From a virus: a stretch of DNA of 30,391 nucleotides. The position numbers and the translations under genes were made by a program. Below, piece by piece: positions 1,634-26,364 of this stretch; positions within the stretch are counted from its first letter, which is position 1, and each line of letters opens with the position of its first letter. A model generated the notes under the pieces. It was not told where the DNA came from. It did no database searches and saw only the letters and a program-made list of their open reading frames with translations. The DNA is taken from IMG/VR virus record IMGVR_UViG_3300023179_000359, positions 1 through 30,391 of that record; one strand, given 5' to 3'.

Positions 1634-1641
1634 TATTTATC
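1634..1641 (-). promoter_or_regulatory. T4-type late promoter box, 5 nt from ATG
   Basis: Minus-strand GATAAATA is followed by TAGTT and the ATG at 1628. In T4 late promoters transcription starts about six bases after the box, which would place +1 on or beside the start codon and give a leaderless mRNA. It overlaps the end of the terminase gene. Confidence 0.45.
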
Positions 1642-6869: not shown

Positions 6870-6873
6870 AATA

Positions 6874-6940: not shown

Positions 6941-6952
6941 GAAGATTTTAAA

Positions 6953-10600: not shown

Positions 10601-10670
10601 CAGGTTCAGCTGGTGTGTAAAATGACTCGTCAATAACTTTGACTTCTACGCCTGGTGAACTTAATGCCAT
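7608..10670 (-). CDS. 18: Contractile tail sheath protein (T4 gp18 family), enlarged
   Basis: This 1020-residue protein is much longer than T4 gp18 (659). The N-terminus MALSSPGVEVKVID and the C-terminal portion (residues about 880-1020, with LDRINVARLIVYLRRQL and FIYIPLRIKNTGEIA) are typical of myovirus sheath subunits. The extra length lies mostly between residues about 120 and 630. It contains four imperfect copies of a GD-x-W / aromatic-Trp module (residues about 188-229, 262-296, 505-531, 560-597). These probably project from the outer sheath surface. The protein forms the contractile outer tail. AGGAG precedes ATG 10670, and a consensus TATAAATA lies about 33 bases upstream. Confidence 0.93.
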   Translation of the reverse strand: MALSSPGVEVKVIDESFYTPAEPGTVPLIVVASAENKTNGSGAGVALGTLKANAGEIYLLTSQRDLADLFGDPIFKTDISGNPVHAGELNEYGLQAAYSFLGVSNRVYVVRADIDLNQLEPSANEPSSTPIGGTHWLHTGLTKFGIFEWDNSSVQSGGQKFVSKTPLIITESSKVNASTGAPKAAVGSNGDYAIVSVDTDNTTSTLTTSHGNVYEHALYYKKSGTGWVEVGSSAWSGGTLGLQMSPHTEVPEWKVTDATNKPTGSVWIKTTNPNAGAFIYVQRFNSTTLVWERVDCPIFSSGEKAVYGLDKTGGGQNILTGALYAQTNHTEASPAIVNFKIWKRGIPGPTTIVSNPIRATTFTDSTLYSFSMKESLLDGTMSASQVVSFTAATTVADDSTEPVLDADSLAAAINNVGFTFVQAEVDSQNRLVIKHLNGGEMRFDNGGGSSPLPLIFDVFDYEPGAINTGKTRFLHDAPDAVNEYIASNWEPLAYAASGSAPERIPDDGQIWYSSIIDEVDIMVHNGITWKGYKNVYPGVNGPIVSASAPETQADNVTGLVNGDIWIDTSDLENFPQIYVYNASLTNLPVVKRWVKRDTSDQTTEDGVLFGDARWTVVGDSAEAEASSIEDLLTSDFLDPDSPDPALYPKGMLLWNLRRSGFNVKQFKRDYIDPTADNPRDNLPMGNYYPHRWVTISSNQDNGSGSFGRKAQRKVVVKALQAAVNSNEDLRDEERRVFNLLACPGYPELIGELITLNYDRALTGFVVGDSPARLDSSATSLLRWASNEDIAVEDNDIGAASFDEYMAMYYPWGFTSDNFGNNIVVPPSHMMLRTIALNDQVAYPWFAPAGVRRGGITNATAVGYITSEGEFRSVALNTGRRDTLYEQKVNPITFLTGTGLVCYGQKTRARGASALDRINVARLIVYLRRQLNILAKPYIFEPNDKITRDQLKAAAESLLVELVGQRALYDYIVVCDESNNTPSRIDRNELWLDVAIEPVKAVEFIYIPLRIKNTGEIASLG
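8880..10109 (-). repeat. Four imperfect GD-x-W surface modules within the sheath
   Basis: Protein-level repeats include NGDYAIVSV...ALYYKKSGTGW, TGSVWIKT...FIYVQ...LVW, DDGQIWYSS...IMVHNGITW and NGDIWIDT...QIYVYN...RW. Each has a short acidic/aromatic strand pair and a terminal Trp. They fall in the part of the sheath that is absent from T4 gp18. Similar modules occur in the gp14-like and gp15-like proteins of this window. Confidence 0.5.
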
Positions 10671-12941: not shown

Positions 12942-14243
12942 ATGCCGCGATTATCATTATACCGTCCAGAAAAAGGCAAGGATTATAGATTCTTGGATCG
13001 TAACATCTCAGAAATGTTTCAAGTAGGAGGAACAGACTTATACTTTCATAAGTATATAGGTCCTCTTAATACACCAGAAAATCAGTCCAGTCCCGAACAA
13101 CCCCATTATGCAGAACAAAAAGAAACTAATATACAAGATTTATTATTTTTAGAAAATCGTGATAGAAAATACGATTCCAGTGTTTATGTAATGAGAGGTA
13201 TCTATAATGTAGCTGACATTGATTTTAATTTAAGCCAATTTGGGTTATGGTTAGATAATGATACTCTTACAATAACTGTTCATATTAATGATACTATTAA
13301 ACTTATAGGAAGAAAACCGCTTAGTGGTGATGTTGTTGAATTACCCCATTTAAGAGATGAATTTGCACTTAACGAATTTGATCTTGCTTTACCGAGGTTT
13401 TATGTTATTGAAGATGTAAATAGAGCTGCTGAAGGATTTAGTCGTACTTGGTATCCTCATTTATATCGTTTAAAATTAAAGAAAATAACAGATAGTCAAC
13501 AATATGCAGATATACTAAGCAAACCGTCCAATACAGATGTGAATTTTGTGGGAGACTATTCAGCTACTGCTACTTATACTCAAGGTCAGATAATTCGTTA
13601 TGAAGGCAAATTGTATAATGTACTGACTACTATTTCTGGTCAAGAACCTCCAGATAGCACATATTATACTTTATATGAATCGACTAGTTTACAGGATCTT
13701 TTAAGTACTCAAAATAAAGCTCTGGAAATTAACGACGCTATTATCGCAGAAGCAGAAGCCAATGCTCCTAAAAGTGGTTATGAAACTAGACAGTTTTTTA
13801 CTTTACAGGCCAATGAAGAAGGACAACCTGCTTTAATTACAGCAGATGACACTATTCCGCCACCTGATGCAAGCTCTACTACTATGGATGCCAGTCGCAT
13901 TATGGAACGACCGTTAAGAACAGGATATGCAGGTTACATGCTAGGTGACGGAGTACCTGACAATGGAGTTCAATTTGGTTTTGGGATAAGTTTTCCTCAA
14001 GGAGCTGTCGAAGGAGATTTCTTTTTGCGTACTGATTATAGCCCAAATCGTTTGTTTCGATATACCGGAAAACGTTGGATTAAGAGAGAAGATAATGTTA
14101 GACATACTTTAACTAATACTGATACAAGAAAAACTCGTAAGACTAGCTTCATTAATAATACAAATACAGCTGACATCGGTGGTGATGTTGTGGAAGAACG
14201 ACAACCTATCAGTAAAGCATTTAAACCTAAGGCAGATTTATAA
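12942..14243 (+). CDS. 14: Neck protein-like virion protein (gp14-like) with added surface modules
   Basis: This is a 433-residue protein. The first 185 residues (MFQVGGTDLYFHKYIG, FGLWLDNDTLTITVHINDT, SGDVVELPHLRDEF, YPHLYRLKLKKI) resemble T4-like gp14 neck proteins, which are about 250 residues and seal the head-tail joint. Residues 203-246 (GDYSATATYTQGQIIRYEG, with LYNV) look like a small aromatic carbohydrate-binding-type module of the kind that follows a Y/W..G..Y..G pattern. Residues 357-383 (EGDFFLRTDYS, LFRYTGKRW) repeat the GD-x-W module seen in the sheath. It starts the plus-strand island and ends in a TAATG overlap with the gp15-like gene. The gp14 identity is moderately supported; the added modules are my inference. 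Confidence 0.65.
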   Translation: MPRLSLYRPEKGKDYRFLDRNISEMFQVGGTDLYFHKYIGPLNTPENQSSPEQPHYAEQKETNIQDLLFLENRDRKYDSSVYVMRGIYNVADIDFNLSQFGLWLDNDTLTITVHINDTIKLIGRKPLSGDVVELPHLRDEFALNEFDLALPRFYVIEDVNRAAEGFSRTWYPHLYRLKLKKITDSQQYADILSKPSNTDVNFVGDYSATATYTQGQIIRYEGKLYNVLTTISGQEPPDSTYYTLYESTSLQDLLSTQNKALEINDAIIAEAEANAPKSGYETRQFFTLQANEEGQPALITADDTIPPPDASSTTMDASRIMERPLRTGYAGYMLGDGVPDNGVQFGFGISFPQGAVEGDFFLRTDYSPNRLFRYTGKRWIKREDNVRHTLTNTDTRKTRKTSFINNTNTADIGGDVVEERQPISKAFKPKADL

Positions 14244-15889
14244 TGCAATTTTTCTATGACGGTCAAATAAGACGATATATTACACAGATTATTAGAATAT
14301 TAAGTAATTTTGTAGTAAGATCAGGAGATGGAACTCTAACAAGAGTGCCTGTGATGTACGGGGATCCTGATCGACAAGCAGCTAATATAGTTAATCAAAA
14401 CAGTGAAAATACTATTCCTAGTGTTCCAAGAATAGCAGTTTATATTACCGACTATGATTTAAATCGTAATAGAATTCAAGAACCTACTTTTATTAGTAAG
14501 ATGCATATAAGAGAAAGAGCTGTAGAAATAGATCAGTATGGAAATGAGTATTACACCAGTGAACAAGGAAAGCAATTTACAGTTGAAAGAATGATGCCTA
14601 CACCATTTGATCTCACAGTTAAAGCAGACATTTGGGCTTCTAACACAGAACAAAAATTACAGATATTAGAACAAATTTTAGTTTTATTCAATCCTAGTTT
14701 GGAAATTCAAACTACTGATAATTTTATAGATTGGACTAGTCTAAGTGTATTAGAATTAGAAGATGTTAATTTTAGTAGTAGATCAGTGCCTATAGGAACG
14801 AATAGTACAATAGACGTAGCCAGTATTACTCTTAAAACTCCAACATGGCTCAGTCCTCCCGTTAAAGTTAAAAAGCTCGGTGTTGTAACTAGTGTTATTA
14901 CTAATTTGTACACAGGAGTAGATCCAGGAATTGGAGATTATTTAGAAGGGTATGGTATCGACCCTGCTGCCTATGAGATGGGCTTAACAAATTATGAGTT
15001 CACAACAACCACAACTATAGGAAATTTTGAAATAAATGTTTCCCCTGAAGGAATACGAATGTTTAGTAAAGCAAAAGGAGAGGATGATAATATTCCGTGG
15101 ACTACTTTGCTAACTCAGATTCCTGGAGAATTCAAAGCAGGACTAAGTAAAATTTTCTTAACACAGGTAAATGGTGTAGTGGTAGGAACACTGAGTTTCA
15201 ATCCGTTGGATCCTACTTTACTAAGCGTTATATGGGATCCGGATACTTTTTCTAGTAATTCTTTATTGGATGATTATGGTAATATACAAGGAATAGATGT
15301 CGATTATGATGTTGCAACAGGCAAGGGCACATTTGATGCTATCATTAACCCGCAAACTTTTAATCCTAAAAGGCCTAACGGGGAACATACTGATCAAATT
15401 ATTACTACAGGAACAAGATACTTACTGGTAGATAATTGCGGAGGTGGAGTACGCGAAACTTTTTCAGCACCACGAACTTCCAAAATTATTAATACTGGTG
15501 AACAATTTAATCTTATAAATCATAGTAAACTATTTGTAAACGGATCAATAACTAGTCATATATTAGATAATGTTAACGGTATTTGTCATATAAAAACCGC
15601 TGTTTCAATTAGTAAAAACAGCATTGTTACATATATTTTAAATTACAACCAAGATGGACCAGATGCTTGGAAAAACGCTAATGGGGATGATACTATTGCA
15701 TATGCTAACGACATTATTATGTGGACCGGTTCCGAGTGGAGAGTGATATTTCAAGCTCAGGATAGAACCGATGCTATAGTTTATCAAACTAATTATTATA
15801 CAGGAACTCAGTATAAATGGAATGGTATAAATTGGGAAAAATCATTTGAAGGGGACTATGACAGAGGAAACTGGCGTTTACAACTCTAA
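14243..15889 (+). CDS. 15: Tail sheath stabiliser / completion protein (T4 gp15-like), extended
   Basis: This 548-residue protein is about twice the length of T4 gp15 (272). The N-terminal 220 residues match the gp15 layout: FFYDGQIRRYITQIIRILSN, then RVPVMYGDPDRQAA, PRIAVYITDYDLNRNR, PFDLTVKADIWASNTEQ, QILVLFNPSLEI and LKTPTWLSPPVKV. The protein caps the finished tail so that the neck can join it. The remainder is beta-rich, and its last 60 residues hold two Trp-rich GD-x-W-like units (MWTGSEWRVIF and YKWNGINWEKSF). The start ATG 14243 overlaps the previous stop in TAATG. The last 32 bases overlap the Nudix gene. Confidence 0.85.
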   Translation: MQFFYDGQIRRYITQIIRILSNFVVRSGDGTLTRVPVMYGDPDRQAANIVNQNSENTIPSVPRIAVYITDYDLNRNRIQEPTFISKMHIRERAVEIDQYGNEYYTSEQGKQFTVERMMPTPFDLTVKADIWASNTEQKLQILEQILVLFNPSLEIQTTDNFIDWTSLSVLELEDVNFSSRSVPIGTNSTIDVASITLKTPTWLSPPVKVKKLGVVTSVITNLYTGVDPGIGDYLEGYGIDPAAYEMGLTNYEFTTTTTIGNFEINVSPEGIRMFSKAKGEDDNIPWTTLLTQIPGEFKAGLSKIFLTQVNGVVVGTLSFNPLDPTLLSVIWDPDTFSSNSLLDDYGNIQGIDVDYDVATGKGTFDAIINPQTFNPKRPNGEHTDQIITTGTRYLLVDNCGGGVRETFSAPRTSKIINTGEQFNLINHSKLFVNGSITSHILDNVNGICHIKTAVSISKNSIVTYILNYNQDGPDAWKNANGDDTIAYANDIIMWTGSEWRVIFQAQDRTDAIVYQTNYYTGTQYKWNGINWEKSFEGDYDRGNWRLQL

Positions 15890-16316
15890 ACAAATTACTT
15901 GCTCAGGTGCAATTATATGTGCCAAAGAAACAAGACGAGTTCTACTACTACAAAAAACTTCGGGAAAACATAAAGGCACTTGGGGACTAGTAGGAGGAAC
16001 TCATAAAAGTGATGAAAATAAATTACAAGGTCTACATAGAGAGATAGAAGAAGAAATTTCTTTCATTCCAGATTTAACAAAAATTATTCCGTTAGAAAAA
16101 TTTGTAAGTAATGATAGTTTGTTTAATTTTTCTACTTATTTTTGTGTAGTTCAAAATGAATTTATTCCTATATTAAGTCAAGAACATTCAGCATGGGGTT
16201 GGTTTGATTTAAATAGTTTACCTAAACCTTTACATAGAGCTTTAGAACTAAGTTTAAAAAATAAAATTATTCAGACTAAGATTTCGACCATTATAGAAAT
16301 TATAGATGCTTTGTGA
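15858..16316 (+). CDS. Nudix hydrolase
   Basis: I start this 152-residue protein at ATG 15858 (MTEETGVYN), which has GAAGGGGA just upstream, rather than at an upstream TTG. The Nudix box reads G-THKSD-E-x7-REIEEEI-S-F, matching GX5EX7REUXEEXGU except that the late Gly is Ser. The residues that bind the metal and pyrophosphate (REIEEE) are present, preceded by the usual GTWGLVGG strand. Nudix enzymes cleave nucleoside diphosphates linked to another group. The substrate here (dNTP, ADP-ribose, NAD-type or capped RNA) cannot be read from the sequence. It overlaps the gp15-like gene by 32 bases, so it is expressed with structural proteins. Confidence 0.85.
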   Translation: MTEETGVYNSKQITCSGAIICAKETRRVLLLQKTSGKHKGTWGLVGGTHKSDENKLQGLHREIEEEISFIPDLTKIIPLEKFVSNDSLFNFSTYFCVVQNEFIPILSQEHSAWGWFDLNSLPKPLHRALELSLKNKIIQTKISTIIEIIDAL

Positions 16317-16325
16317 GAATTTAAA

Positions 16326-16607
16326 ATGAGTTTATCAATAGAAAAAAGTGATGTATTTCAAAAAGAATATTCTTCTTGGAACATGAAATTAGAAAAAATA
16401 CAAAATGAATCGATTAAAAAAGAATTAACAGGACTGCTCAACAGTCTAGTAAAAACAGTCAGACTATTAGATACCTGTCACAATGATCTAGGAACTGCTA
16501 ATCGTATTAGTGCAAATGCCTTAGAATTTAGACAGTCTATATACGAATTAAGAACTAATATTCATAAGAAATTTCAAGAGGTTGAAGCAGTAGAAGGTCC
16601 ATTATAA
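16326..16607 (+). CDS. Small helical, coiled-coil-like hypothetical protein
   Basis: This 93-residue protein of unknown family is predicted almost entirely helical from its heptad-like spacing (WNMKLEKIQNESIKKELTGL, LVKTVRLLDTC, FRQSIYELRTNIHKKF). It follows the Nudix gene by nine bases with no clear ribosome binding site. It converges with the halogenase gene, their 3' ends overlapping by 34 bases. It ends the plus-strand island. The consistent reading frame and codon use resemble its neighbours, so I take it as real. Confidence 0.55.
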   Translation: MSLSIEKSDVFQKEYSSWNMKLEKIQNESIKKELTGLLNSLVKTVRLLDTCHNDLGTANRISANALEFRQSIYELRTNIHKKFQEVEAVEGPL

Positions 16608-18079
16608 ATCATTTCTAAATACTGATAATGATTAGGAAAACAGTCAATTTCCATATTAGTCCTAACTTTTAACATTTCTTTTTGAATATTATAATAATCT
16701 ATATCAGTTATATTTCTTTTTTCATTTAGATATTGCCCACAGGCATTTATTACTTGAAACCATTGCCCACTATGAAACATAGTGAAATTATATTCTTTAA
16801 ATAATTCTTCTGGAGGGGTTGGTATAAAATTCCTAAGTATTTCTTTGATAAATTCGGGCATAGGAACATCGTCAAAATATTTCCAAAAATCTGTATCTTT
16901 TTTCGAATTAGTTTTATAATGAATATGTATAAAAGCCAATATCTCTCTGAATAAATCACTGTATAAATCGTTTATACTATCTTTTAGAGCATCACAAAAC
17001 TCTAAATTAAAACTCTTTAGGTATGAAACCAACATTTCTAAAGATTTAGTAGTAAATGTAATGCCAGTAGCTTCTAACGGTTCGACGAACCCTCCGCTTA
17101 GACCAACAGCTATGACATTTTTATAACAAATTTGCTCTTTATAACCGGTTTTCATATCTAAATGAATTACATCCGTAGTATAATCGTTAACACTTTGTCT
17201 AAACTCTAATTCAGCTTGATCCTTAGTAATGAAGCTTGAACTATATACATAGCCATTTCCAATTCTTCCAAAGGTAGGAATAGTCCATTTCCATCCGCTA
17301 TTCATCGCTGTTGACTTAGTGTAAGGATGACATTCATTATAAGGATTCTTGTAGTTTGTAGGCATAGCTATAGCTTTGTCGCATGGCAATAAACTATCAA
17401 TCTTTAAATGTTTTATTCCTAAGTATTTTTCTAATAATAATGATTTAAATCCGGTACAGTCGAGATATAAATCAGACTTTACTGTTTGAGTTTCTAAAAT
17501 AATCCCATCGATTCCCTGATGTGTCACTTTTACATCAACTATTTCTCCATCAATGTAATTAATCTTATCTTTAACTTTATCTTGTAAAGATTTAACAATT
17601 TTTATAGCATTGAAATGAACAGCTTCTGAAGATTGAACTTTTGAACCAACTACAAAATCTAAATCCTTTGAAAATTTAGGACTTTTATTAGCCTTAGCTA
17701 ATCTATAGGCGGGTAGCCAATCATAATACTCATTAGGATTTATACCTACCCAATAATTATGTACTAGCCTGCTTGGAGATACTATGTGTGTCAAAGTACT
17801 ATCGTTGTCGACAAAAAAAGAATCTTTTTGCCATCCTATAAATTCTACTCCTAGTTTGTAAGTGGCATCACTACTTTTCATCCAATCTTCAGGATTTAGG
17901 CCGCAATTCCTTAAGAAAGTAGTGGTGTAAGGTTGAGTTCCTTCTCCTACACCAATTGTTCCAATTTTAGTGCTTTCTATCAAAGTAACATTTAAGCTGG
18001 GTAGATTATGATTAATATAACAAGCAGCAAGCCAACCACTGGTTCCACCGCCAACTATACAGACAGATTGAACCCTCAT
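16574..18079 (-). CDS. Flavin-dependent tryptophan-halogenase-family enzyme (copy 1)
   Basis: This 501-residue protein (PrnA/RebH about 530) has the FAD-binding VGGGTSGW at residues 9-16 and GVGEGTQP at 43-50. The lysine matching PrnA Lys79 is K75 in DATYKLGVEF. The family motif WxWxIP is W263/W265 in SGWKWTIP. FVEPLEATG at 331-339 places E336 at the PrnA Glu346 position, with the Thr-Gly of the halide site kept. Such enzymes use FADH2, oxygen and halide to form a HOX equivalent that halogenates indole or phenol rings. Cyanophage relatives exist, and one (VirX1) has been shown to be an active halogenase. The substrate is unknown. No dedicated flavin reductase is visible, so a host one would be needed. 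It is the last gene of the fibre-adhesin operon. Confidence 0.9.
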   Translation of the reverse strand: MRVQSVCIVGGGTSGWLAACYINHNLPSLNVTLIESTKIGTIGVGEGTQPYTTTFLRNCGLNPEDWMKSSDATYKLGVEFIGWQKDSFFVDNDSTLTHIVSPSRLVHNYWVGINPNEYYDWLPAYRLAKANKSPKFSKDLDFVVGSKVQSSEAVHFNAIKIVKSLQDKVKDKINYIDGEIVDVKVTHQGIDGIILETQTVKSDLYLDCTGFKSLLLEKYLGIKHLKIDSLLPCDKAIAMPTNYKNPYNECHPYTKSTAMNSGWKWTIPTFGRIGNGYVYSSSFITKDQAELEFRQSVNDYTTDVIHLDMKTGYKEQICYKNVIAVGLSGGFVEPLEATGITFTTKSLEMLVSYLKSFNLEFCDALKDSINDLYSDLFREILAFIHIHYKTNSKKDTDFWKYFDDVPMPEFIKEILRNFIPTPPEELFKEYNFTMFHSGQWFQVINACGQYLNEKRNITDIDYYNIQKEMLKVRTNMEIDCFPNHYQYLEMIYNGPSTASTS

Positions 18080-18080
18080 T

Positions 18081-18740
18081 TTAATTAAAACTTGTTGTGC
18101 CAGCAGTGCCTACACCGTAATTAAATTTTTCATCACCGTGATAATCAACATTAAAAGTTTGTCGTAATCCTGGACCTTGTGGATATACTCCATGTAGCAT
18201 AAAACTTGGAAAAATTATAAGCATTCCTTCATGAGGAGTAATATGCATTACCCTAGTCCCAGGAATAGATATTTCACTATAACTTCCTCCATCCATGATA
18301 AAATACACTGATCCGGTTGTATAAGGAGGATCGTTATCATTTTTTTTAGGAACAGCAGTGTAAGTTATAGTGCTAATAGACCCCGGACCATGCTCGTGTA
18401 CAGTATGCCAGCTACCTTGTTCTCCTTTTACTGTCCAGGCACTCTTAGCATAGAGTCTGTTCCAACTAAATGGCATTATACCGTGATGAATTAATTCTTT
18501 TTGTACAACCATTGCATACTTTTCTTTTATGGTGTCCCACTGTTGAGGATACGTATGATCATTACTTGGCATCCAAGTCGGTGGTATAATGTAATGTTGT
18601 TTAGAATTTATTCCTTTAGCACTGGTAAATTCTGCATAATTTTGTTTGTCAACATCTTCTAGCATTTCTTTTATATCAGAAATATTGTCTATCTGTGTTA
18701 TAATTAACCAGTTTTTTCCTTGGCGAAAAATTTGTGTCAT
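18081..18740 (-). CDS. 2-oxoglutarate/Fe(II) oxygenase-like protein
   Basis: This 219-residue protein has the double-stranded beta-helix pattern of the 2OG-Fe(II) oxygenase superfamily, close to the putative-oxygenase group common in marine phages. SWHTVHEHGPGSIS (H112, H115, H117 as possible iron ligands) is followed by strands ISTITYTAVP and GSVYFIMDGG. Then comes PHEGMLIIFPSFMLHGVYP with distal H183 and R193 as the likely 2OG-binding arginine. Such enzymes hydroxylate proteins or small molecules. The start overlaps the end of halogenase copy 2 (ATGA at 18737-18740), and halogenase copy 1 begins one base after its stop. It is therefore sandwiched between the two halogenases, suggesting a shared substrate or pathway. 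Confidence 0.75.
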   Translation of the reverse strand: MTQIFRQGKNWLIITQIDNISDIKEMLEDVDKQNYAEFTSAKGINSKQHYIIPPTWMPSNDHTYPQQWDTIKEKYAMVVQKELIHHGIMPFSWNRLYAKSAWTVKGEQGSWHTVHEHGPGSISTITYTAVPKKNDNDPPYTTGSVYFIMDGGSYSEISIPGTRVMHITPHEGMLIIFPSFMLHGVYPQGPGLRQTFNVDYHGDEKFNYGVGTAGTTSFN

Positions 18741-20227
18741 ACAGTCTCCGGATTATCCATCAGCCATTGTAATGCTTGTCTATGACTAAATGCCTTGCCT
18801 TTAGAAATTCTTAGTTCTATATCTTGTAGCATATTTTTGTAGTTTATACCTATAGAGTCTTGGACATGCTTAGGTTGTCTTAGTAACTCTTTCATTGCAA
18901 TTTCCTTACTGATAAGTCCTAGACCATGTAAAACAACTATATAGTTAGATTCTTTAAACATCACTGTTCGACTAGGAAACTCACTTACACTAGGAAATTT
19001 ATTTTTCCATATCTCAAGTTTTTCTTCTAAAGATGGAAATTTAGGCAAATTTTTTACACTTTTCCAAAAATCAGTATCTTCACGAGGAGTCATATAGTGA
19101 AGTTGAACAAATTCTACGATATTTTCTAGCAGTTCGTCGGATAATTTATTAAAAGTTCTTTGAGCATAGTCTATTGTAGAACCTGGTATATAAGATGAAA
19201 TAGCAGTTGAAAAATAATATGCTTGTTGAATACTAGATCCAATACTACTTGCTTCTAATGGTTCAATAAAACTACAACTCAGACCTATTGCACAGCAATT
19301 TTTTACCCAGGATTTTTCTAAACATCCCGCATCAAATTTAATTTTTTTAGCTATTTCAACTTTTTGACCATATAATTTCTCTACTTCTAATTGCGCTTGA
19401 TCAAAATCCATAAATGAATCTTGAAATACATATCCATTGCCGAATCTTTCTTGAGTGGGAATTCTCCATAACCATCCGCTATCCATGGCTTTTGATAATG
19501 TCCAACTAGGAATGTCATCTTTCTTTTCAGTTGGAAAAGCTATCGCACTATTCATTGGCAAATATTTGTTGTAGCTTCTCCAAGGAACACCCATTGCTTT
19601 ATGTAATAATAATCTATGAAATCCTGTGCTATCAATATAAAATTGATATTTTAATTTATTACCTTCTTGATCAATAAGATAGTCAACAGCTCCTGTTTCA
19701 TCTAATTTAACTTGTTCTATTTCAGCACGAATAACTCCAATATCTCTTTCTTGACAAATAGTATGCAAATAATTATTAAGTTTAAAAGTATTAAAATGAA
19801 ACTGGTTTACTCCCCAGAACGGTTCAAGATGAAGGTTTTGTTCTATATAAGGCATGACAAGACTTTTCGGACCTAGTCCTTCGCTTATTGGATATACATA
19901 CATTATTTTACTGTGTGTTTGTGTTTCCACATTCATATTACCTGAAACATTATGTATATAATTTGTTCCATCTCCGAGCCAATTTGAAAAATTAATTCCG
20001 TATTTAAATGTACAATCTGTATGGGTAATTAATTCTGACATACTGATACGGCAATCACCTGTAAAATTTGCCCAATGTTCTGTGCTACCTTCACCTACAC
20101 CTACAATACCAATTTTTTCAGATTCGATTAAATCGATTTTTAAATTAGGATGAGTTTTCCTAAGAATTAAGGCGGTGACTAAACCTGCTGTTCCACCGCC
20201 TACAATAGCGATATTATCTAATAGCAT
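18737..20227 (-). CDS. Flavin-dependent tryptophan-halogenase-family enzyme (copy 2)
   Basis: This 496-residue protein starts at ATG 20227 (MLLDNIAIVGGG), which has CGGAG seven bases upstream. A longer in-frame ORF to 20311 would run through the previous gene. Motifs are VGGGTAGL at 9-16, GVGEGSTE, the catalytic-type lysine K75 in DCTFKYGINF, WxWxIP at W252/W254 in SGWLWRIP, and IEPLEASS with E325 at the PrnA Glu346 position. The halide-site Thr-Gly of copy 1 is replaced here by Ser-Ser. The downstream helix (IGSSIQQAYYF) also differs, so the two copies are diverged rather than recent duplicates. It overlaps the methyltransferase-like gene by 14 bases and the oxygenase by four. Confidence 0.88.
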   Translation of the reverse strand: MLLDNIAIVGGGTAGLVTALILRKTHPNLKIDLIESEKIGIVGVGEGSTEHWANFTGDCRISMSELITHTDCTFKYGINFSNWLGDGTNYIHNVSGNMNVETQTHSKIMYVYPISEGLGPKSLVMPYIEQNLHLEPFWGVNQFHFNTFKLNNYLHTICQERDIGVIRAEIEQVKLDETGAVDYLIDQEGNKLKYQFYIDSTGFHRLLLHKAMGVPWRSYNKYLPMNSAIAFPTEKKDDIPSWTLSKAMDSGWLWRIPTQERFGNGYVFQDSFMDFDQAQLEVEKLYGQKVEIAKKIKFDAGCLEKSWVKNCCAIGLSCSFIEPLEASSIGSSIQQAYYFSTAISSYIPGSTIDYAQRTFNKLSDELLENIVEFVQLHYMTPREDTDFWKSVKNLPKFPSLEEKLEIWKNKFPSVSEFPSRTVMFKESNYIVVLHGLGLISKEIAMKELLRQPKHVQDSIGINYKNMLQDIELRISKGKAFSHRQALQWLMDNPETV

Positions 20228-20699
20228 TTGGGTTCTCCGAAAGATCTGATGGCCGTGGGTTATGAGGAATTTTACAAGTGTGCAAAGTTGATTCTGCCAT
20301 AAAAATTTCATTTACTAAATCAAAGTGTCTCTGTAAAGTAAATGCTAGTCCTATAGTTTTCCAATGCTGTTTCCAGGCAGGATCGGTATTTGGCATTAAG
20401 TCATATTTGTATTCATATATACAAACAGTTTCGGATAAGTTTTTAATTTTTTCTATGAAACTAGCTGGTTGTTCTATTATTTCAAGGCCTGCCGACACAA
20501 CAATAGTATCAAATCCACTAATCTTTTCTAGATCAAAATCGGAATTAAAGTCTATTTTAACATCCGATTTATCTTCGATTCCTGCTGTCTTATAATTGGT
20601 AAAATTATTATATTTGTCTAACCGTTCTTCATTAAATGCGACATGAAGTATAGTTTGATCTGAGCTTAAAAGTTTTGATAAAACTTCAATGTGATTCAT
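20214..20699 (-). CDS. Rossmann-fold, methyltransferase-like protein (tentative)
   Basis: This is a 161-residue protein. The C-terminal half has the shape of a class I methyltransferase: SGFDTIVVSAGLEIIEQP, a helix, ETVCIYEYKYDLMP, and DPAWKQHWKTIGLAFTLQRHF, ending MAESTLHTC. The N-terminal half is short and lacks an obvious Gly-rich SAM-binding loop (LHVAFNEERLDKY at that position), so catalytic ability is doubtful. AAGGAT precedes ATG 20699. It follows the adhesin array by 54 bases and overlaps the start of halogenase copy 2, making it the first gene of the modification cassette. It could be a degenerate methyltransferase, a substrate-binding partner or something unrelated. Confidence 0.5.
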   Translation of the reverse strand: MNHIEVLSKLLSSDQTILHVAFNEERLDKYNNFTNYKTAGIEDKSDVKIDFNSDFDLEKISGFDTIVVSAGLEIIEQPASFIEKIKNLSETVCIYEYKYDLMPNTDPAWKQHWKTIGLAFTLQRHFDLVNEIFMAESTLHTCKIPHNPRPSDLSENPNAIR

Positions 20700-20753: not shown

Positions 20754-21266
20754 TTATACAGGAACATATTCTTCAATTATCATCTGACCTGGGCAGTCAT
20801 AAGCATTACCGCCGCCGTCCCAGTATTGAGTATGCCATAAATGAGCATTATGACTTCCTTCATTATAACTACGACATTTAAACCCTATTCTTCCATATGC
20901 TTCTGCTCCCCAACTAGGAACATCATATTGTATTGTATTAGTATTCTCTACGTGATGACCGCCTCGTGTAAACCGTCCAATTTCAACTTCGTCAAGATAA
21001 AAAATATAGTGCATGATCATATGTTGTCCCGCGCCGTACTGACGAGTGAATATGTTATAGCTAGCTCTTATCCGTGTATCACCTCGAATTGGTCTATAAT
21101 CCATGTAAGCGCCAGGAACCCAATAATAGGCATTATTTCCTCTCCACCATCCGCTACGATGTATATAATTCGTTCTCTGAACTATTCGTCTTTTAAAATG
21201 ATCTGCTGTTATACTAAATGTATTGCCTTCATTAGTAAGTGTATCAACTTGTAAAATGCCGGTCAT
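20754..21266 (-). CDS. Family-A Trp/Tyr-rich adhesin-like protein, copy 1
   Basis: This 170-residue member of the six-copy family starts at ATG 21266 (MTGILQVDTL), which forms ATGA with the upstream stop. Family marks are RRIVQR, GNNAYYWVPGAY, DVPSWG, GRIGF and QYWDGGGNAY, ending IIEEYVPV. It is one of the more diverged copies. The GG-WNP motif is changed to SGWWRGNN, and the middle segment carries IFYLDEVEIGRF rather than the usual HWxFYAN. The N-terminal M-T-x-L-x-V-x-T-L start is shared with short tail-fibre/receptor-binding proteins of marine T4-like phages. Its location at the end of the fibre operon supports a virion adhesin; no enzymatic motif is seen. Confidence 0.65.
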   Translation of the reverse strand: MTGILQVDTLTNEGNTFSITADHFKRRIVQRTNYIHRSGWWRGNNAYYWVPGAYMDYRPIRGDTRIRASYNIFTRQYGAGQHMIMHYIFYLDEVEIGRFTRGGHHVENTNTIQYDVPSWGAEAYGRIGFKCRSYNEGSHNAHLWHTQYWDGGGNAYDCPGQMIIEEYVPV

Positions 21267-21772
21267 GCTGCTGTCCACTCCTCTACGCTAACCCAACTAG
21301 GAACACCTCTAGTACTATCTGCTCCGTCTATAAATCGTCTTGCATTGTAATGAATGCTGTGATTACTGTCGGTATATTGTCTAGTAGTATAGCCCATTGC
21401 GCCTGTTTTACCGGCACCCCAACTTGGCACTTCCCATCGCCGTATAGACCCTTGTTCATTATGATCATTACTTACACTATGCCTTGCAAATTCTAGACCG
21501 TTGGCATAAAATATCCAGTGGCTTATACTATGGGCGGCACCCCTATGTCCCAACGGACACATCCATGTATAAATGAGATAACTGTTACTGTATAAAGGAG
21601 TAATGCTTAACCAACTTCCTGGAACTTCATAGTAATTGTTACCCGGATTCCAAGCACCACCTTTAAACCAACGAGTAGTTCTTTGTATAAGTCGTCTATT
21701 AAAGTTTTTTGTACTAAGATTTACTGAATTTGCAGTATTTCTAACAGTATTAACTATTAAAGTTCCGGTCAT
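21263..21772 (-). CDS. Family-A Trp/Tyr-rich adhesin-like protein, copy 2
   Basis: This is a 169-residue paralog. GGAWNPGNNYYEVPG and HSISHWIFYANGLEFARHS match the family closely. The C-terminal YWDGGG is degraded to RFIDGADS, and the protein ends VSVEEWTAA. It begins one base after the stop of the 21774-22103 gene and overlaps copy 1 by four bases. This is the most unusual C-terminal half of the set, so its binding surface may have changed. Function is inferred only from position and similarity to its neighbours. Confidence 0.65.
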   Translation of the reverse strand: MTGTLIVNTVRNTANSVNLSTKNFNRRLIQRTTRWFKGGAWNPGNNYYEVPGSWLSITPLYSNSYLIYTWMCPLGHRGAAHSISHWIFYANGLEFARHSVSNDHNEQGSIRRWEVPSWGAGKTGAMGYTTRQYTDSNHSIHYNARRFIDGADSTRGVPSWVSVEEWTAA

Positions 21773-21773
21773 A

Positions 21774-22103
21774 TTAGGGCTTTGGGTAATCTTGTTTTAT
21801 CTGTTCTCGTCTAGCCTGCAATTCATTGGCCATCTCTGGGCGATTTTCTACTACTTTTTCCCATAGAGCAACAATCATATCATCTCTGCTGGGGTACCTA
21901 CCAGGCATACTACGAGCTTCGGCAACTTTTCTCAATGCTACCTGATCTTTAATAGTTTCCCATTTTGCTGTGAGTTCTTCGACAGAAGGTTTAGGTTCAA
22001 CTTCCATCCATGTAATATCGTCATACCTTGGACCTCTTACTCCATATTGACGGCCGGCATAGAATTTATGCATAACTTCACCGAAATCAACTTCATCAGT
22101 CAT
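21774..22103 (-). CDS. Putative tail-fibre assembly chaperone-like protein (short)
   Basis: This 109-residue acidic protein has an internal coiled-coil-like helix (VEELTAKWETIKDQVALRKV). The segment RYPSRDDMIVALWEKVVENRP resembles the YPS-x-x-(E/D)QLDALW element found in small proteins encoded next to phage tail fibres. AAGGAG precedes ATG 22103. It interrupts the family-A array between copies 2 and 3. A chaperone or accessory role for fibre folding is inferred from the motif and place. Confidence 0.5.
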   Translation of the reverse strand: MTDEVDFGEVMHKFYAGRQYGVRGPRYDDITWMEVEPKPSVEELTAKWETIKDQVALRKVAEARSMPGRYPSRDDMIVALWEKVVENRPEMANELQARREQIKQDYPKP

Positions 22104-22125
22104 TCTATTCTCCTTATTCCTTTAT

Positions 22126-22683
22126 TTACCTTGCTGTAATTGTTTGTCTTGTAGCATCGCCTACTGCTGTTGGTTCTCCTGCTCCTAGGTACTCTTCTAC
22201 TATTAGTTGTCCACGAGAATTTTGAGCACTACGACCACCACCGTCCCAATAATATGTAGTATATAACCTAACTTCATGGTTATCATTTGAATATGATCTT
22301 ACTTGATAACCTATACGGCCGGCACTGGTTCCCCAACTAGGAACATCCCATTGAATAATATTACCATCTTCTATATGAACACCCGATTGACTATGCCAAT
22401 AATACAAAATATTATTAACGAAAAACCTCCAGTGACTGATACCATGACTAGCGACTACCCATGCATGGGGCACTCTCCACATGAAATGAATTCTAGATTC
22501 TGCGCTTCTTGGAGTAAAATCTACAAATCCTCCTGGAACCCAGGTACTGGTATTATCCGGGTTCCATTCACCACCGGTATAAGTATTTTCATATCTTTGT
22601 ATAACGCGAGCTGTTAATTCTTCCAAAGGCACAACTATGGTACCTAATCTGTTAGAAATAGCATTTAGTCTAAGTGTACCCAT
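22126..22683 (-). CDS. Family-A Trp/Tyr-rich adhesin-like protein, copy 3
   Basis: This is a 185-residue paralog with nine Trp by eye. Conserved elements in order are RVIQRYENTYTGGEWNPDN, TWVPGGFVDFTP, SESRI-type SAESRIHF, HGISHWRFFVNN, WDVPSWGTSAGRIGYQVRSY, NDNHEVRLYTTYYWDGGG and LIVEEYLG. It has a 15-20 residue C-terminal tail (GEPTAVGDATRQ...) that the other copies lack. It starts at ATG 22683 in a TAATG overlap with copy 4. It shares long, nearly identical DNA blocks with copy 4. Confidence 0.7.
   Translation of the reverse strand: MGTLRLNAISNRLGTIVVPLEELTARVIQRYENTYTGGEWNPDNTSTWVPGGFVDFTPRSAESRIHFMWRVPHAWVVASHGISHWRFFVNNILYYWHSQSGVHIEDGNIIQWDVPSWGTSAGRIGYQVRSYSNDNHEVRLYTTYYWDGGGRSAQNSRGQLIVEEYLGAGEPTAVGDATRQTITAR
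22214..22289. repeat. Near-identical 76-bp DNA block, copy in adhesin 3
   Basis: This block matches 22717-22792 with a single mismatch, an offset of 503 bases. It encodes the NDNHEVRLYTT / YWDGGGRSAQNSRG part of copies 3 and 4. A second identical 27-bp block at the same offset lies at 22444-22470 and 22947-22973, with more diverged sequence in between. Confidence 0.9.
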
Positions 22684-23186
22684 TAGTAAAGTAACTCCTC
22701 AATTATCATGTGTCCCCGAGAATTTTGAGCACTACGACCACCACCGTCCCAATGATATGTAGTATATAACCTAACTTCATGGTTATCATTTGCATGTGAT
22801 CTGTGCTGAAGACCAATGCGACCAGAGCTTGTGCCCCAACTAGGAACTTCAAACTGATAGGTTTTACCGTTTTCAATATGAGTTCCGCTTTCACTCCAGT
22901 TATAGTATAAAATATTATTAGCATAAAAATACCAATTACTAATAGCATGACTAGCGACTACCCATGCATGGGGAATTCTACAAGTGAATTTTATTCTGCT
23001 GTCTGCTCGTCGAGGAGTCATATCATAAAAGGCACCTGGTATCCATGTATATGTATTATCAGGATTCCATTCTCCCCCAGTATATTGTGCTTGATAACAT
23101 TGTATCACTCTTTGTTTAAGTTCTCGTGCAGGAATATTCACTGTGCCTGCTACATCTCGTAATGTTTCAACTGTTAAGGTTCCCAT
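22683..23186 (-). CDS. Family-A Trp/Tyr-rich adhesin-like protein, copy 4
   Basis: This 167-residue paralog starts at ATG 23186 (MGTLTVETLRD), which overlaps the stop of copy 5 in TAATG. The longer in-frame start at 23231 lies inside copy 5 and is rejected. Marks are RVIQCYQAQYTGGEWNPDN, YTWIPGAFYDMTP, HAISNWYFYANN, VPSWGTSSGRIGLQHRS, YHWDGGGRSAQNSRG and MIIEELLY. It is closest to copy 3, with which it shares almost identical DNA in the 3' part, while the regions facing the loops differ. Confidence 0.7.
   Translation of the reverse strand: MGTLTVETLRDVAGTVNIPARELKQRVIQCYQAQYTGGEWNPDNTYTWIPGAFYDMTPRRADSRIKFTCRIPHAWVVASHAISNWYFYANNILYYNWSESGTHIENGKTYQFEVPSWGTSSGRIGLQHRSHANDNHEVRLYTTYHWDGGGRSAQNSRGHMIIEELLY
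22717..22792. repeat. Near-identical 76-bp DNA block, copy in adhesin 4
   Basis: This is the partner of 22214-22289, with one mismatch. Such a match is far stronger than the protein-level family similarity requires and points to recent duplication or gene conversion. Confidence 0.9.
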
Positions 23187-23695
23187 TATACACCTACCAA
23201 ATATTCTTCTATTACGAGCTGTCCAATACATACCTGGGCGCTGGCGCCGCCGTCCCAGTATTGAGTCGTATATACTCTTACTTCATGATTATCATCTGCA
23301 TAGGATCTGTTCTGATAGCCTATACGACCAGTACTAGTTCCCCAACTGGTAAAATCCCAAATATAGGTACTCATATCTTCGAGATGATTTCCGCTAATAC
23401 TATGCCTACCAATTTCCACACTGTTAGCATAAAATACCCAATGACTTATTCCAAGAGCGTTGCCACTATTTCGCGAATATGGAATATGGCAATAAGTTCT
23501 AATTCTACTACTGGCACTAGCCGGAGTATAATCAAAAAACATTCCAGGGATCCATTGGTAAGTGGTTGTTGGATTCCATTGTCCGCCATTATAAGTTTGA
23601 CGATAACTTTTGATTACTCTATGACTCAATTCAGTTAAAGGAATCTGAGTTCTAGTTTCATCGACTGTTAAATTATCTACTATTATAGTACTCAT
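23186..23695 (-). CDS. Family-A Trp/Tyr-rich adhesin-like protein, copy 5
   Basis: This is a 169-residue paralog. Marks are RVIKSYRQTYNGGQWNPTT, YQWIPGMFFDYTPASASS, LGISHWVFYANSVEIGRHS, GTSTGRIGYQNRSYADDN and YTTQYWDGGASAQVC, ending VIEEYLVGV. ATG 23695 overlaps the stop of copy 6 (ATGA). It shares a 53-base DNA block, one mismatch, with copy 6 over the GMFFDYTPASASSRIRT region. Otherwise it resembles copies 3 and 4 at the C-terminus, so it is a mosaic of the family. Confidence 0.7.
   Translation of the reverse strand: MSTIIVDNLTVDETRTQIPLTELSHRVIKSYRQTYNGGQWNPTTTYQWIPGMFFDYTPASASSRIRTYCHIPYSRNSGNALGISHWVFYANSVEIGRHSISGNHLEDMSTYIWDFTSWGTSTGRIGYQNRSYADDNHEVRVYTTQYWDGGASAQVCIGQLVIEEYLVGV
23496..23548. 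repeat. 53-bp DNA block shared with adhesin copy 6
   Basis: This block matches 23993-24045 with one mismatch, an offset of 497 bases. It encodes PGMFFDYTPASASSRIRT in copies 5 and 6. Confidence 0.85.
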
Positions 23696-24192
23696 GGTAT
23701 TGCAAAATATTCCTCTATTCTGAATTCAGCCATGGCATTTTGATTGCTGCCACCGCCGTCCCAATGATGTGTTCCATGGATTCGTGGCTGGTTACTGCCG
23801 GAATAGGCTCTCATTTGATAACCAATACGGCCGGCACTGGTTCCCCAACTAGCGAAATCCCAAACATAGGTATGTCTATGTTCTGGGCTTTGTCCGGCTA
23901 TGCTATGTCTTCCTATCTCAGTTCCATTAGCATAAAAAATACAATGACAGATTGCATGTCCACTAGCATGACTATAGCTAAAACAAATAGTGGTTCTAAT
24001 TCTACTACTGGCACTGGCCGGAGTATAATCAAAAAACATTCCAGGAGCCCAATCATACGCTGTACTAGGGTTCCAAGATCCGGCATTGTATGTAGACCTA
24101 TAATCTTTTATAGTTCTTTGTCGAAGTTCACTTAAAGGAATTGTAAACTCCGATGTAACGCCTTGAATGTTATCAACTCTTATTGTGCTCAT
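23692..24192 (-). CDS. Family-A Trp/Tyr-rich adhesin-like protein, copy 6
   Basis: This is a 166-residue paralog. Marks are RTIKDYRSTYNAGSWNPST, YDWAPGMFFDYTPASASS, HAICHCIFYANGTEIGRHS, DFASWGTSAGRIGYQMRAY and HHWDGGGSNQNAMAEF, ending RIEEYFAIP. The usual HWxFYAN Trp is Cys here. ATG 24192 overlaps the stop of the 24189-24620 gene (ATGA). It is the first family-A gene in transcription order. Confidence 0.7.
   Translation of the reverse strand: MSTIRVDNIQGVTSEFTIPLSELRQRTIKDYRSTYNAGSWNPSTAYDWAPGMFFDYTPASASSRIRTTICFSYSHASGHAICHCIFYANGTEIGRHSIAGQSPEHRHTYVWDFASWGTSAGRIGYQMRAYSGSNQPRIHGTHHWDGGGSNQNAMAEFRIEEYFAIP
23993..24045. repeat. 53-bp DNA block shared with adhesin copy 5
   Basis: This is the partner of 23496-23548, with one mismatch, lying in the middle of copy 6. 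Confidence 0.85.
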
Positions 24193-24620
24193 CTAAGATG
24201 CCTATATCTTGCATGTCCCGCAGGTTCACCATCTGGTCTTATGGGCCAATCTACACCTAACAATTCTCCTGATTCTAATCTAGGAGTAGCTGTTTTTGTA
24301 ATATCTGCCAATGCTTGAAAATAGTCACGCCATTCTTGAGAAATTTCTTCACCTGTTCTCATGGCTCTAATTACTACCCAATCTACTTCTCTCATTCTAG
24401 CATCACGAACTCTTCTTAGCACTCTCATTGGAGCAGCTGATAGTAATTCTTCGGCTTTTGCTAGGATCGCTTCATCAGTAGGTCTTAACGTGGGGTCTGA
24501 TTCCCAAACAAGTCCTTCTAGTCCATCACCCTCTATTCTCCATGTTGCATTAGGCTGTAAAGCATGGATAGCATCCGGTATGGGTAAAATTCTTCTACTT
24601 GAATTCCTTACTTCAGTCAT
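24189..24620 (-). CDS. Putative tail-fibre assembly protein-like (XkdW/TAC-type region)
   Basis: This is a 143-residue protein. The C-terminal half reads VLRRVRDARMREVDWVVIRA, then EEISQEWRDYFQALADI. This follows the R-x-x-RD-x-L-x-x-(T/S)DW...W-x-x-Y(R/F)-x-AL pattern of small proteins encoded beside phage tail fibres and often called assembly chaperones. Marine T4-like phages carry similar ones. It lies exactly between the family-B and family-A adhesin sets and overlaps copy 6 by four bases. AAGGA precedes ATG 24620. The role is inferred from the motif and context. Confidence 0.6.
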   Translation of the reverse strand: MTEVRNSSRRILPIPDAIHALQPNATWRIEGDGLEGLVWESDPTLRPTDEAILAKAEELLSAAPMRVLRRVRDARMREVDWVVIRAMRTGEEISQEWRDYFQALADITKTATPRLESGELLGVDWPIRPDGEPAGHARYRHLR

Positions 24621-24638
24621 GTTCTAATTCCTTCATAC

Positions 24639-24646
24639 TATTTATG
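24639..24646 (-). promoter_or_regulatory. Possible internal late promoter for the family-A array
   Basis: Minus-strand CATAAATA (one mismatch) ends 18 bases before ATG 24620, leaving room for the AAGGA ribosome binding site. It overlaps the stop codon of the preceding gene. It could give the array and halogenase cassette separate late expression from the main fibre gene. Confidence 0.4.
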
Positions 24647-25256
24647 ATGCTATTTCTTGAGCAATAGCAAAACTTACTCCTTGTTCGTAGGCGTCTGCAC
24701 CATTTTGATAATTGGTAAATGTGCAATTTAGTGTAAATGTTTGATTGCTACCTCCAGAACTTTTCACAGCCAGGCTATAAGTAACCCATTCTGTTGTACC
24801 TGGACGATCTACCCAAGGAACTTGAATATAATGTGGTGTACTATCATTGTTATTATCATATATAGAAACACCGATTCCCTGTTGTCTACTTGCCCCGTAA
24901 AAACCTATTACGCTAGCATCAGGTTGTGCTACTCCTACCATATTCATATCTCGTAATATAGTATACACTGTATCCTGTCCGGCTTCATAAAAAACATTAA
25001 ATTCTACAAAGATAAAACTATCTGCACTCATAGGACGAATGCTTACATCTAGTGGTCTTATAATTACTCCACCTTCGTGCACACCTTCTGCAAATATGTC
25101 CGCTCTCATTCCACCGTCGTTATTAGGTATTGAATAATATAGTCTTTCCATAGACACTGTATGTCTTACTTGAACTATATGGCCAGGAGCATATATTCTG
25201 TTAGGATGATTTACCCTTACTGGTCCGGTGATTGTATCAACTTTTAAAGTGCTCAT
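24642..25256 (-). CDS. Family-B adhesin-like / short tail-fibre protein, copy 1
   Basis: This 204-residue protein starts at ATG 25256 (MSTLKVDTITG), which forms ATGA with the upstream stop and has GGGAG upstream. Marks of the family are YAPGHIVQVRHT, RPMSADSFIFVEFNVFYEAGQD, DSTPHYIQVPWVDRPG, TYSLAVKSSGG and a C-terminus ending GVSFAIAQEIAS. The GHIVQV start followed by a beta-rich globular part is typical of fibre-tip proteins in T4-like cyanophages. It carries an extra loop (RADIFAEGVHEGG) compared with the other two copies. Receptor binding is inferred. Confidence 0.7.
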   Translation of the reverse strand: MSTLKVDTITGPVRVNHPNRIYAPGHIVQVRHTVSMERLYYSIPNNDGGMRADIFAEGVHEGGVIIRPLDVSIRPMSADSFIFVEFNVFYEAGQDTVYTILRDMNMVGVAQPDASVIGFYGASRQQGIGVSIYDNNNDSTPHYIQVPWVDRPGTTEWVTYSLAVKSSGGSNQTFTLNCTFTNYQNGADAYEQGVSFAIAQEIAS

Positions 25257-25801
25257 CCTGCAATCTCCCTTGCAAATCCCCAACTATGACCTACTTCGTT
25301 TCCGTCGGTGCCAACATTTCCAATTGGTCTATTGAAAGCAAATGTATGTGTACCACTACTACTACTTCTTACTGCTAAACTATAAGTTCTTGCTGCGGTA
25401 TTCAAAGCAGGATCAAACCAATTAACAGTGCTAATCAAAGGAGTACTACTGTCATCGCCAGCATAATTAGGAGCTAGAATTCCTGACCACCTAACATTGC
25501 CTCTTAGTGTGTTATACCCTATTAAATTTCCATCCTTATGAACTAAAAACATATTATCTTGTTGTAATTCATAAAATATTGTCCATCTTAACCATATAAC
25601 ACTATCGGCTCTTACTGGTGTTATAGTTAAATTCAATTGTGTAATTGCTACTCCATTTCCGCTAGGACTTGATGTATAAGTTGTTCTGACACTTGAACTT
25701 GCTTGTACATATTGAATAATAGTTCCTTGTTGTATGAGGCCATTATTTACAGTTAGTTGCGTTCCAGTGGACGGAGCCAGTCCACCTACTGTAACAGTCA
25801 T
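25253..25801 (-). CDS. Family-B adhesin-like / short tail-fibre protein, copy 2
   Basis: This 182-residue paralog starts at ATG 25801 (MTVTVGGLAPS), preceded by AGGAG and overlapping the upstream stop by ATGA. The longer start at 25825 lies within copy 3. Marks are QQGTIIQYVQAS, TPVRADSVIWLRWTIFYELQQD, YNTLRGNVRWSGI, SSTPL, TYSLAVRSSSSG, and HSWGFAREIAG at the end. The NVRWSGI segment is shared with copy 3 but not with copy 1. Confidence 0.7.
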   Translation of the reverse strand: MTVTVGGLAPSTGTQLTVNNGLIQQGTIIQYVQASSSVRTTYTSSPSGNGVAITQLNLTITPVRADSVIWLRWTIFYELQQDNMFLVHKDGNLIGYNTLRGNVRWSGILAPNYAGDDSSTPLISTVNWFDPALNTAARTYSLAVRSSSSGTHTFAFNRPIGNVGTDGNEVGHSWGFAREIAG

Positions 25802-26364
25802 ACCGCAATCTCCTGTAAAATACACCAGCTTACTCCGCCTTCGTGATCATCTTGAAAGGCACCCCAGGCACGATTAATTCTAATATCATAATTTGTACCA
25901 GTGCTGCTTCTAGACCCTAAACTATATGTATGAGGACCCACACTTCCTGGTTGATCAACCCAGCACATGTGTTCGTAAGCAGGAGTACTACTTAAATCAT
26001 GCTGATGAGAATATTGACCAACACCTATACCGCTCCAACGAACATTACCTACTTCTGTATTATATCCTATTACAGTATTATTTCTCTTAGCTTGGAATGT
26101 TACATCATGATGACATTCATAAAACAACCACCATTGACAAATTACTCTGCTATTAGCTCTTTTAAGGGTTATAATAGTATTCAAACCTGTAATATCTCTA
26201 CTATTATTGTCATTATAACTGTTATAGGTAGCATGATTGTCCATCTTTGTCCATACTGTTTGAATACAATGTCCTGGGGCATATAGTATACTTCCTCTAG
26301 GGAACCCTATAAGATGATTCCCGTCTTGCCTGCCAGCCAGTTCGTCTACTACCAGTGTACTCAT
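25798..26364 (-). CDS. Family-B adhesin-like / short tail-fibre protein, copy 3
   Basis: This is a 188-residue paralog beginning MSTLVVDELAG. Marks are YAPGHCIQTVWTKMD, TLKRANSRVICQWWLFYECHHD, YNTEVGNVRWSGIGVG, DLSSTPAYEHMCWVDQPG, TYSLGSRSSTG and GGVSWCILQEIAV. ATG 26364 overlaps the stop of the 302-residue fibre protein by one base (TAATG). The family-B core (ANSRVICQWWLFYE) has the same layout as the family-A core (S-R-I...HW-x-FYAN), suggesting both families share one fold. Confidence 0.7.
   Translation of the reverse strand: MSTLVVDELAGRQDGNHLIGFPRGSILYAPGHCIQTVWTKMDNHATYNSYNDNNSRDITGLNTIITLKRANSRVICQWWLFYECHHDVTFQAKRNNTVIGYNTEVGNVRWSGIGVGQYSHQHDLSSTPAYEHMCWVDQPGSVGPHTYSLGSRSSTGTNYDIRINRAWGAFQDDHEGGVSWCILQEIAV

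Follow-up and report, generated by a model that had tools for sequence, protein, structure and literature searches.

The 30,391-nucleotide stretch of viral DNA analyzed here (IMG/VR record IMGVR_UViG_3300023179_000359, positions 1 to 30,391; referred to as the window) carries on its minus strand, at 16574–20699, a cassette of four genes. In order, these encode a methyltransferase-like (MT-like) protein, a flavin-dependent halogenase (hal2), a 2-oxoglutarate (2OG)-Fe(II) oxygenase of family PF13759, and a second halogenase (hal1). The cassette is linked through overlaps to a tail fiber operon and comes after an array of paralogous fiber-tip proteins (20754–27272). Clusters of this kind are not new and the exact gene order recurs elsewhere; what is new is that the tip array and the MT-hal2-2OG genes keep company across two phage lineages. 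The explanation that we favor, at a rough probability of 0.42, is that the cassette encodes late oxidative tailoring enzymes for the fiber-tip array.

Genes and predicted active sites of the cassette

An earlier reading of the same DNA, made from the sequence only (the sequence-only reading), had placed four genes at the end of a fiber operon, and all of its coordinates and junctions were confirmed. The MT-like and hal2 genes overlap by 14 bases, hal2 and the 2OG gene overlap by 4 bases, and a gap of 1 base separates the 2OG gene from hal1. The mechanical open reading frame (ORF) of hal2 begins at 20311, with 20227 being the likelier start as indicated by a GGAG ribosome site, the onset of the family match, and an identical start in the related contig L014. 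Ribosome sites are present for three of the four cassette genes, hal1 being the one without a strong site. Promoter and terminator scans gave signals no better than those of shuffled sequences and are uninformative on co-transcription. The four-gene order is conserved in L014 at 55–77% amino acid identity, indicating that the layout is not due to chance. Comparison with L014 resulted in dN/dS values of 0.09 for hal1, 0.10 for hal2, 0.16 for the 2OG gene, and 0.18 for the MT-like gene, which are rough because dS is near saturation; by these estimates hal1 and hal2 are under purifying selection.

The PF04820 match of each halogenase spans nearly the full model (E-values of 1.8e-97 and 1.4e-97, ∼327 bits each). 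The substrates of this type of halogenase are electron-rich rings, and the reaction depends on FADH2, O2, and halide (PMC8407142, PMC7948982). The sequence-only reading had described two diverged homologs that keep the FAD motif, WxWxIP, and the equivalents of Lys79 and Glu346, and each of these residues was located by alignment. G10, G12, and G15 of the GxGxxG motif are invariant in the hal1 and hal2 alignments, which include relatives and solved halogenases. The catalytic lysine (Lys79 of Thal and PrnA), irreplaceable for the activity of Thal (PMC7948982), corresponds to K75 in both proteins when these are aligned with solved tryptophan halogenases. The WxWxIP motif is present as W263KW265TIP in hal1 and W252LW254RIP in hal2, and the catalytic glutamate (Glu346 in PrnA, Glu358 in Thal) corresponds to the invariant residues E336 in hal1 and E325 in hal2. 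This glutamate is followed by alanine (PLEA) in hal1 and hal2 and by serine in Thal, BrvH, and VirX1. Both halogenases are probably active. Matches to Thal end near residue 441 for hal1 and 446 for hal2 in the sequence alignment, and the helical lid over the tryptophan pocket of Thal is made up of residues 445–466 (PMC7948982). The two window proteins are 30% identical and fall into separate supported clades of the family tree, so a recent duplication was rejected. BrvH (PDB ID 6frl) and VirX1 (PDB ID 6qgm) are full-length homologs of hal1 (E-values of 8.9e-66 and 1.9e-61) but have low identity to it (30% for the VirX1 ortholog), and both hal1 and hal2 lie in supported clades (SH-aLRT 97–100) other than that of VirX1 and Syn9 gp42. 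Scans of viral contigs with hal1 or hal2 as a single sequence gave no match, and alignment queries gave matches.

The oxygenase matches PF13759 with an E-value of 7.6e-12. Residues H115, H117, H183, and R193, comprising the predicted histidine ligands and 2OG-binding arginine, are invariant in eight oxygenase sequences. Structure prediction, proposed as a check by the sequence-only reading, gave an AlphaFold2 (AF2) model with a double-stranded beta-helix fold (pLDDT 84, pTM 0.85) that matches PolD, 3bvc, 2rg4, and prolyl hydroxylases, and the enzyme is predicted to be intact. The sequence of the MT-like protein itself has no meaningful family match, its methyltransferase fold being known through relatives and an AF2 model (pLDDT 82). 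The model is Rossmann-like, with many class-I methyltransferases among its Foldseek matches (E < 1e-3). The glycine-rich S-adenosylmethionine (SAM) motif I is lost, reading LHVAFNEER in the window and LHFSHNEER in L014, compared with VHFGSGDQS in the distant relative L019. Because this motif is gone, the protein probably does not function as a methylase, so that the earlier description as methyltransferase-like holds for the class-I fold but not for the degenerate SAM motif. No relative of the MT-like protein was found among cultured phages, nor with its alignment among bacterial and archaeal genomes. The small gene that precedes the cyanophage halogenases (Syn9 gp40, S-RIM44 gp166, P-TIM40 gp45, and P-RSM6 185) was considered as a counterpart and shows no similarity.

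The tip array and the cassette in two phage lineages

The array proteins contain 4.1% Trp, 6.7% Tyr, and 4.4% His, compared with 1.6, 3.8, and 1.4% in the other window proteins, and W40, W48, W117, and W146 are invariant positions of the array family. Among IMG/VR contigs that bear the array and run past it, the MT-like and hal2 genes come next in 13 of 13, and the 2OG gene is present in all 11 that extend beyond these; the 13 include near-copies and represent about eight distinct lineages. This link between cassette and adhesin array is stronger than the sequence-only reading had claimed, the more so as the block is also present in a second phage lineage. That reading would have been refuted by a gene order found only here, which is not the case. 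The exact order occurs in one further contig, L014, and two contigs from one metagenome that both end inside hal2 (L094 and L176) are probably two pieces of a third case. MT-hal2-2OG is found without hal1 in five contigs (L015, L016, L017, L019, and L190), with other genes in its place. In L016 and L190 another fiber-like gene follows the 2OG gene, with collagen-like repeats in that of L016, which places the cassette inside a fiber operon. Additional genes are seen at two of these loci: in L190, MT-hal2-2OG comes directly after the gene of a 549-aa protein (15297–16946) that ends in a Methyltransf_24 domain and has no assignment for its N-terminal half, and in L015 a DUF6065 protein (6749–7546) separates the array from the MT-like gene.

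Among cultured phages, the nearest relatives of the window's sheath and gp15 proteins are those of the jumbo PA5oct-like Pseudomonas phages, Atu_ph07, and Phosso (33–48%). Based on these proteins the window belongs with such jumbo phages and not among T4-like cyanophages. The same lineage, by sheath (46–60%) and gp15, includes most of the multi-halogenase contigs tested (G006, G007, G008, and G010) as well as G004 and G009. Array and MT-hal2-2OG occur together in other members of the jumbo-like lineage, with sheaths 79% identical in the contig of L014 and 53–56% in G004. The second lineage is represented by G003 (176.7 kb), a T4-like cyanophage with a psbA gene and a sheath-sized ORF of 755 aa. 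The DNA of its terminase and sheath region is 71–75% identical to that of Synechococcus phages, and its sheath, terminase, and adjoining fiber are of the Kyanoviridae type. In G003 the array is preceded, at a distance of ∼0.5 kb, by the end of a cyanophage fiber gene (72% to S-CREM1). Compared with the window, the array proteins of this block are 40–61% identical and hal2 is 54% identical, the C terminus of fibK reaches 80%, and the order is unbroken, whereas the remaining virion is of another lineage. The cyanophage copy is seen at locus L197 (5956–14618, contig IMGVR_UViG_3300008107_000003), where the array and MT-hal2-2OG of a psbA-bearing T4-like cyanophage lie immediately behind a cyanophage fiber gene. 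A chimeric contig as the source of this copy was rejected, as L197 itself includes the end of the cyanophage fiber gene, ∼0.5 kb ahead of the array, and the same block is found on a contig from a second metagenome. In S-CREM1, a halogenase and four 2OG genes lie behind that same fiber gene.

The synteny of the array and MT-hal2-2OG across two lineages indicates either that they were transferred jointly or that they have stayed linked for a very long period. Fiber tips usually determine the receptor, and sharing of this block with a cyanophage therefore suggests that the phage of the window infects a cyanobacterium.

The features of the window are collected in Table 1. Within the array, fibC has no match among 50,697 phage records, and p109, which is in the same place in all relatives and among the better-conserved members (61–78%), is possibly a fiber-assembly helper. 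The overlap of the NUDIX gene with the end of gp15 is a neighborhood common to the PA5oct-like Pseudomonas phages, in which no halogenase is annotated there. The large terminase gene is split in the window, and because L205 has a single intact 530-aa terminase ORF (8989–10581), the split reflects either a frameshift in the gene or an error of assembly.

Table 1. Positions of the cassette genes and of other features in the window
Feature	Position	Strand	Description
hal1	16574..18079	-	Flavin-dependent halogenase PF04820, 501 aa; G10xG12xxG15, K75, W263xW265xIP268, E336 intact
2OG-Fe(II) oxygenase	18081..18740	-	PF13759/TIGR02466-like, 219 aa; invariant H115, H117, H183, R193
hal2	18737..20227	-	PF04820, 496 aa from 20227 start; G10xG12xxG15, K75, W252xW254xIP257, E325 intact
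MT-like protein	20214..20699	-	161 aa; predicted class-I methyltransferase fold without glycine-rich SAM motif
fibA	20754..21278	-	Array protein, fiber tip, W/Y/H-rich
fibB	21263..21772	-	Array protein, fiber tip
p109	21774..22103	-	phrog_9114; constant place within array
fibC, fibD, fibE, fibF, fibG, fibH, fibI	22126..25825	-	Further array proteins
fibJ and fibK	25798..27272	-	Array proteins
Large tail fiber protein	27638..30337	-	phrog_9851; first in operon
p93	16326..16607	+	Small protein; 3' end overlaps hal1 3' end by 34 bases, convergent
NUDIX hydrolase	15846..16316	+	Overlaps gp15; far border of variable site; convergent with hal1
gp15	14243..15889		
Sheath	7608..10670		1020 aa
Large terminase	1640..3231	-	Two overlapping ORFs, termN and termC

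Halogenase clusters in other phages

The best 80 loci from each of two IMG/VR alignment scans gave 127 non-redundant halogenase loci, which were picked by halogenase similarity alone, ignoring neighbors, and have flanks of up to 8 kb. At least two halogenases are present in 44 loci and a 2OG gene lies within the flank in 104, adjoining the halogenase in 72; a halogenase-2OG-halogenase sandwich is seen in 8. The share of bases covered by 2OG genes is 32.5% at less than 1 kb from the halogenase, 26% at 1–2 kb, and 4.6% at 7–8 kb. Up to four halogenases occur in a row (L054 and L088), and the families that the other neighbors in 14 multi-halogenase loci match most often are those of tail fibers, fiber assembly, and sheath stabilizers. 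Like the window, many other tandems pair halogenases from different clades of the family tree, so the paired genes did not arise by recent duplication. Clusters of several halogenases with 2OG genes are common among uncultivated phages, most of them jumbo-like. At four loci from uncultivated phages (L025, L041, L054, and L088), three or four halogenase genes from different clades follow one another with overlaps, accompanied by several 2OG genes. In L098 (11330–13403), an inverted halogenase and 2OG gene face another halogenase-2OG set beside a NUDIX gene, and the variable site may take cassettes from both sides. MT837902, a fecal "phage" with two halogenases, was set aside because it looks like a fragment of a bacterial chromosome, with glycoside-hydrolase-like genes around.

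The claim to novelty in the sequence-only reading fared less well than its description of the genes. VirX1, named there as an example of the single halogenases known in cyanophages, is the same protein as Syn10 CPUG_00131, whose gene comes second in a tandem halogenase pair. Paired halogenases with an oxygenase next to adhesins had been thought undescribed as a system, which mostly fails, as several isolated cyanophages have pairs and 2OG genes beside fiber genes and a halogenase/2OG/methylase cluster has already been predicted as one system (PMC7824862). A table published in 2010 (PMC3037559) already lists a cyanophage genome with two prnA genes, whose lengths of 1593 and 1524 bases are those found in Syn9, as well as genomes that hold several 2OG genes. 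In Syn9, Syn10, P-RSM6, S-RIM44, and P-TIM40, two PF04820 halogenases with 2OG genes nearby and minimal overlaps lie directly behind fiber and fiber-assembly genes, as in the window. In contrast to the cassette, the halogenases of these Kyanoviridae tandem loci adjoin (11-base overlap) with the 2OG genes afterward, belong to clades other than those of hal1 and hal2, and are accompanied by neither an MT-like gene nor such a tip array. The Pelagibacter phage HTVC008M also has a 2OG gene overlapping a halogenase inside a tail/packaging module, but this is a single halogenase, 34% identical to hal2 and beside the terminase rather than fibers. P-SSM2 PSSM2_217 is among the cultured-phage halogenases closest to hal2 (40–42%) and lies beside fiber-assembly genes and a 2OG gene, whereas it is a single halogenase separated from the 2OG gene by an unrelated gene and has no MT-like gene. 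The S-SSM6a cluster of halogenase, 2OG, methylase, and carbamoyltransferase genes was predicted by Iyer et al. to be a biosynthetic or decorating system (PMC7824862). The S-SSM6a/S-SSM7 cluster resembles the cassette in that halogenase, 2OG enzymes, and methylase are viewed as one tailoring system, and differs in having carbamoyltransferase and sugar genes, neither of which was found among the window proteins scanned (the former by its core), and a halogenase of a distant clade.

Possible roles of the cassette

We infer the substrate, product, timing, and benefit of the proposed tip tailoring as follows. The cassette would be made with the tail fiber genes late in infection. A host flavin reductase would supply FADH2, which is assumed because 12 related contigs, several of them fragments, yielded no PF01613 flavin reductase. 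By the chemistry established for the halogenase family, hal1 and hal2 would form a flavin hydroperoxide and from it hypohalous acid, which is passed to the Lys/Glu pair, and an electron-rich ring of the client would be halogenated. As the two enzymes come from different clades, their target sites are probably different. The 2OG oxygenase would then hydroxylate a residue of the same client, and the MT-like protein may serve as a partner for binding or presentation and not as a methylase. Tips modified in this way would have altered receptor binding or virion stability. This explanation is favored because relatives halogenate Trp at the peptide level, as described for ChlH (PMC12518702) and a proteusin brominase (PMC10858898), and because the array proteins are Trp/Tyr-rich with invariant Trp positions.

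Several points weigh against tip tailoring. Many multi-halogenase phages are without this tip array, and the halogenases of S-H38 and S-SCSM2R are located away from fiber genes. Glycan-binding tips are expected to be Trp/Tyr-rich anyway, and the distant arrays L201–L204, which have no halogenase, are nevertheless Tyr-rich with somewhat raised Trp, a comparison that is only suggestive because this lone halogenase-free array type differs in other respects. The late timing is deduced from gene position only, and we know of no phage halogenase that acts on protein.

A further point against tip tailoring speaks for an auxiliary metabolic cassette, in which a small host metabolite (indole, tryptophan, or amino acid-derived) would be halogenated and hydroxylated to give a signal, toxin, or protectant, the fiber operon serving only as expression site. 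We consider this account rather unlikely, yet it stays close because VirX1, a member of this family and the sole characterized phage halogenase found, works on small aromatic compounds (PMC8407142). For the halogenase-2OG-methylase cluster of S-SSM6a, Iyer et al. predicted a halogenated amino acid/sugar metabolite (PMC7824862), and pyrrolnitrin-like protection has been proposed before (PMC2984593, PMC9964418). In contrast, the cassette contains no precursor, assembly-line, or export genes, the related contigs yielded no flavin reductase, and the cassette accompanies one fiber array, with other clusters often neighboring fiber genes.

The two remaining explanations are less likely than either tip tailoring or the small-molecule account. 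The region between the fibers and the neck genes could be a gene-exchange hotspot where halogenase, oxygenase, and array are unrelated cargo with no joint function, consistent with the variability of the site (hal1 is replaced by other genes in L015, L016, L017, and L019) and with the hyperplastic regions known near such genes in cyanomyoviruses (PMC2984593). This is improbable given that the MT-hal2-2OG order is maintained down to 26–65% amino acid identity, and across two phage lineages, and that 2OG genes crowd halogenases with the distance decay described above. Slightly more improbable still is decoration of surface glycans, either of the host (as a superinfection block) or of the virion, in which an aromatic or sugar substituent would be halogenated and hydroxylated: capsule decoration is the alternative of Iyer et al. 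for the S-SSM6a cluster (PMC7824862) and the halogenase and 2OG genes of S-SSM7 lie beside sugar kinase, heptose, and epimerase genes, but the window proteins scanned include no glycosyltransferase or nucleotide-sugar gene, and among close relatives a glycosyltransferase-like ORF is seen only in L015, with the 2OG gene 6 kb upstream of it.

A more tentative extension of tip tailoring is that array and cassette form a mobile module of adhesin plus chemical finishing, in which the tips would be halogenated and hydroxylated on the virion and the block exchanged between distant lineages sharing a host. If true, this would to our knowledge be the first case of a virus particle being halogenated by enzymes, and many phage halogenases would thereby gain a function. 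Reports of halogenases in cyanophages date back to 2010 or before, and VirX1 is a characterized biocatalyst; the constant company of the cassette with one defined array of small tips offers a concrete candidate substrate.

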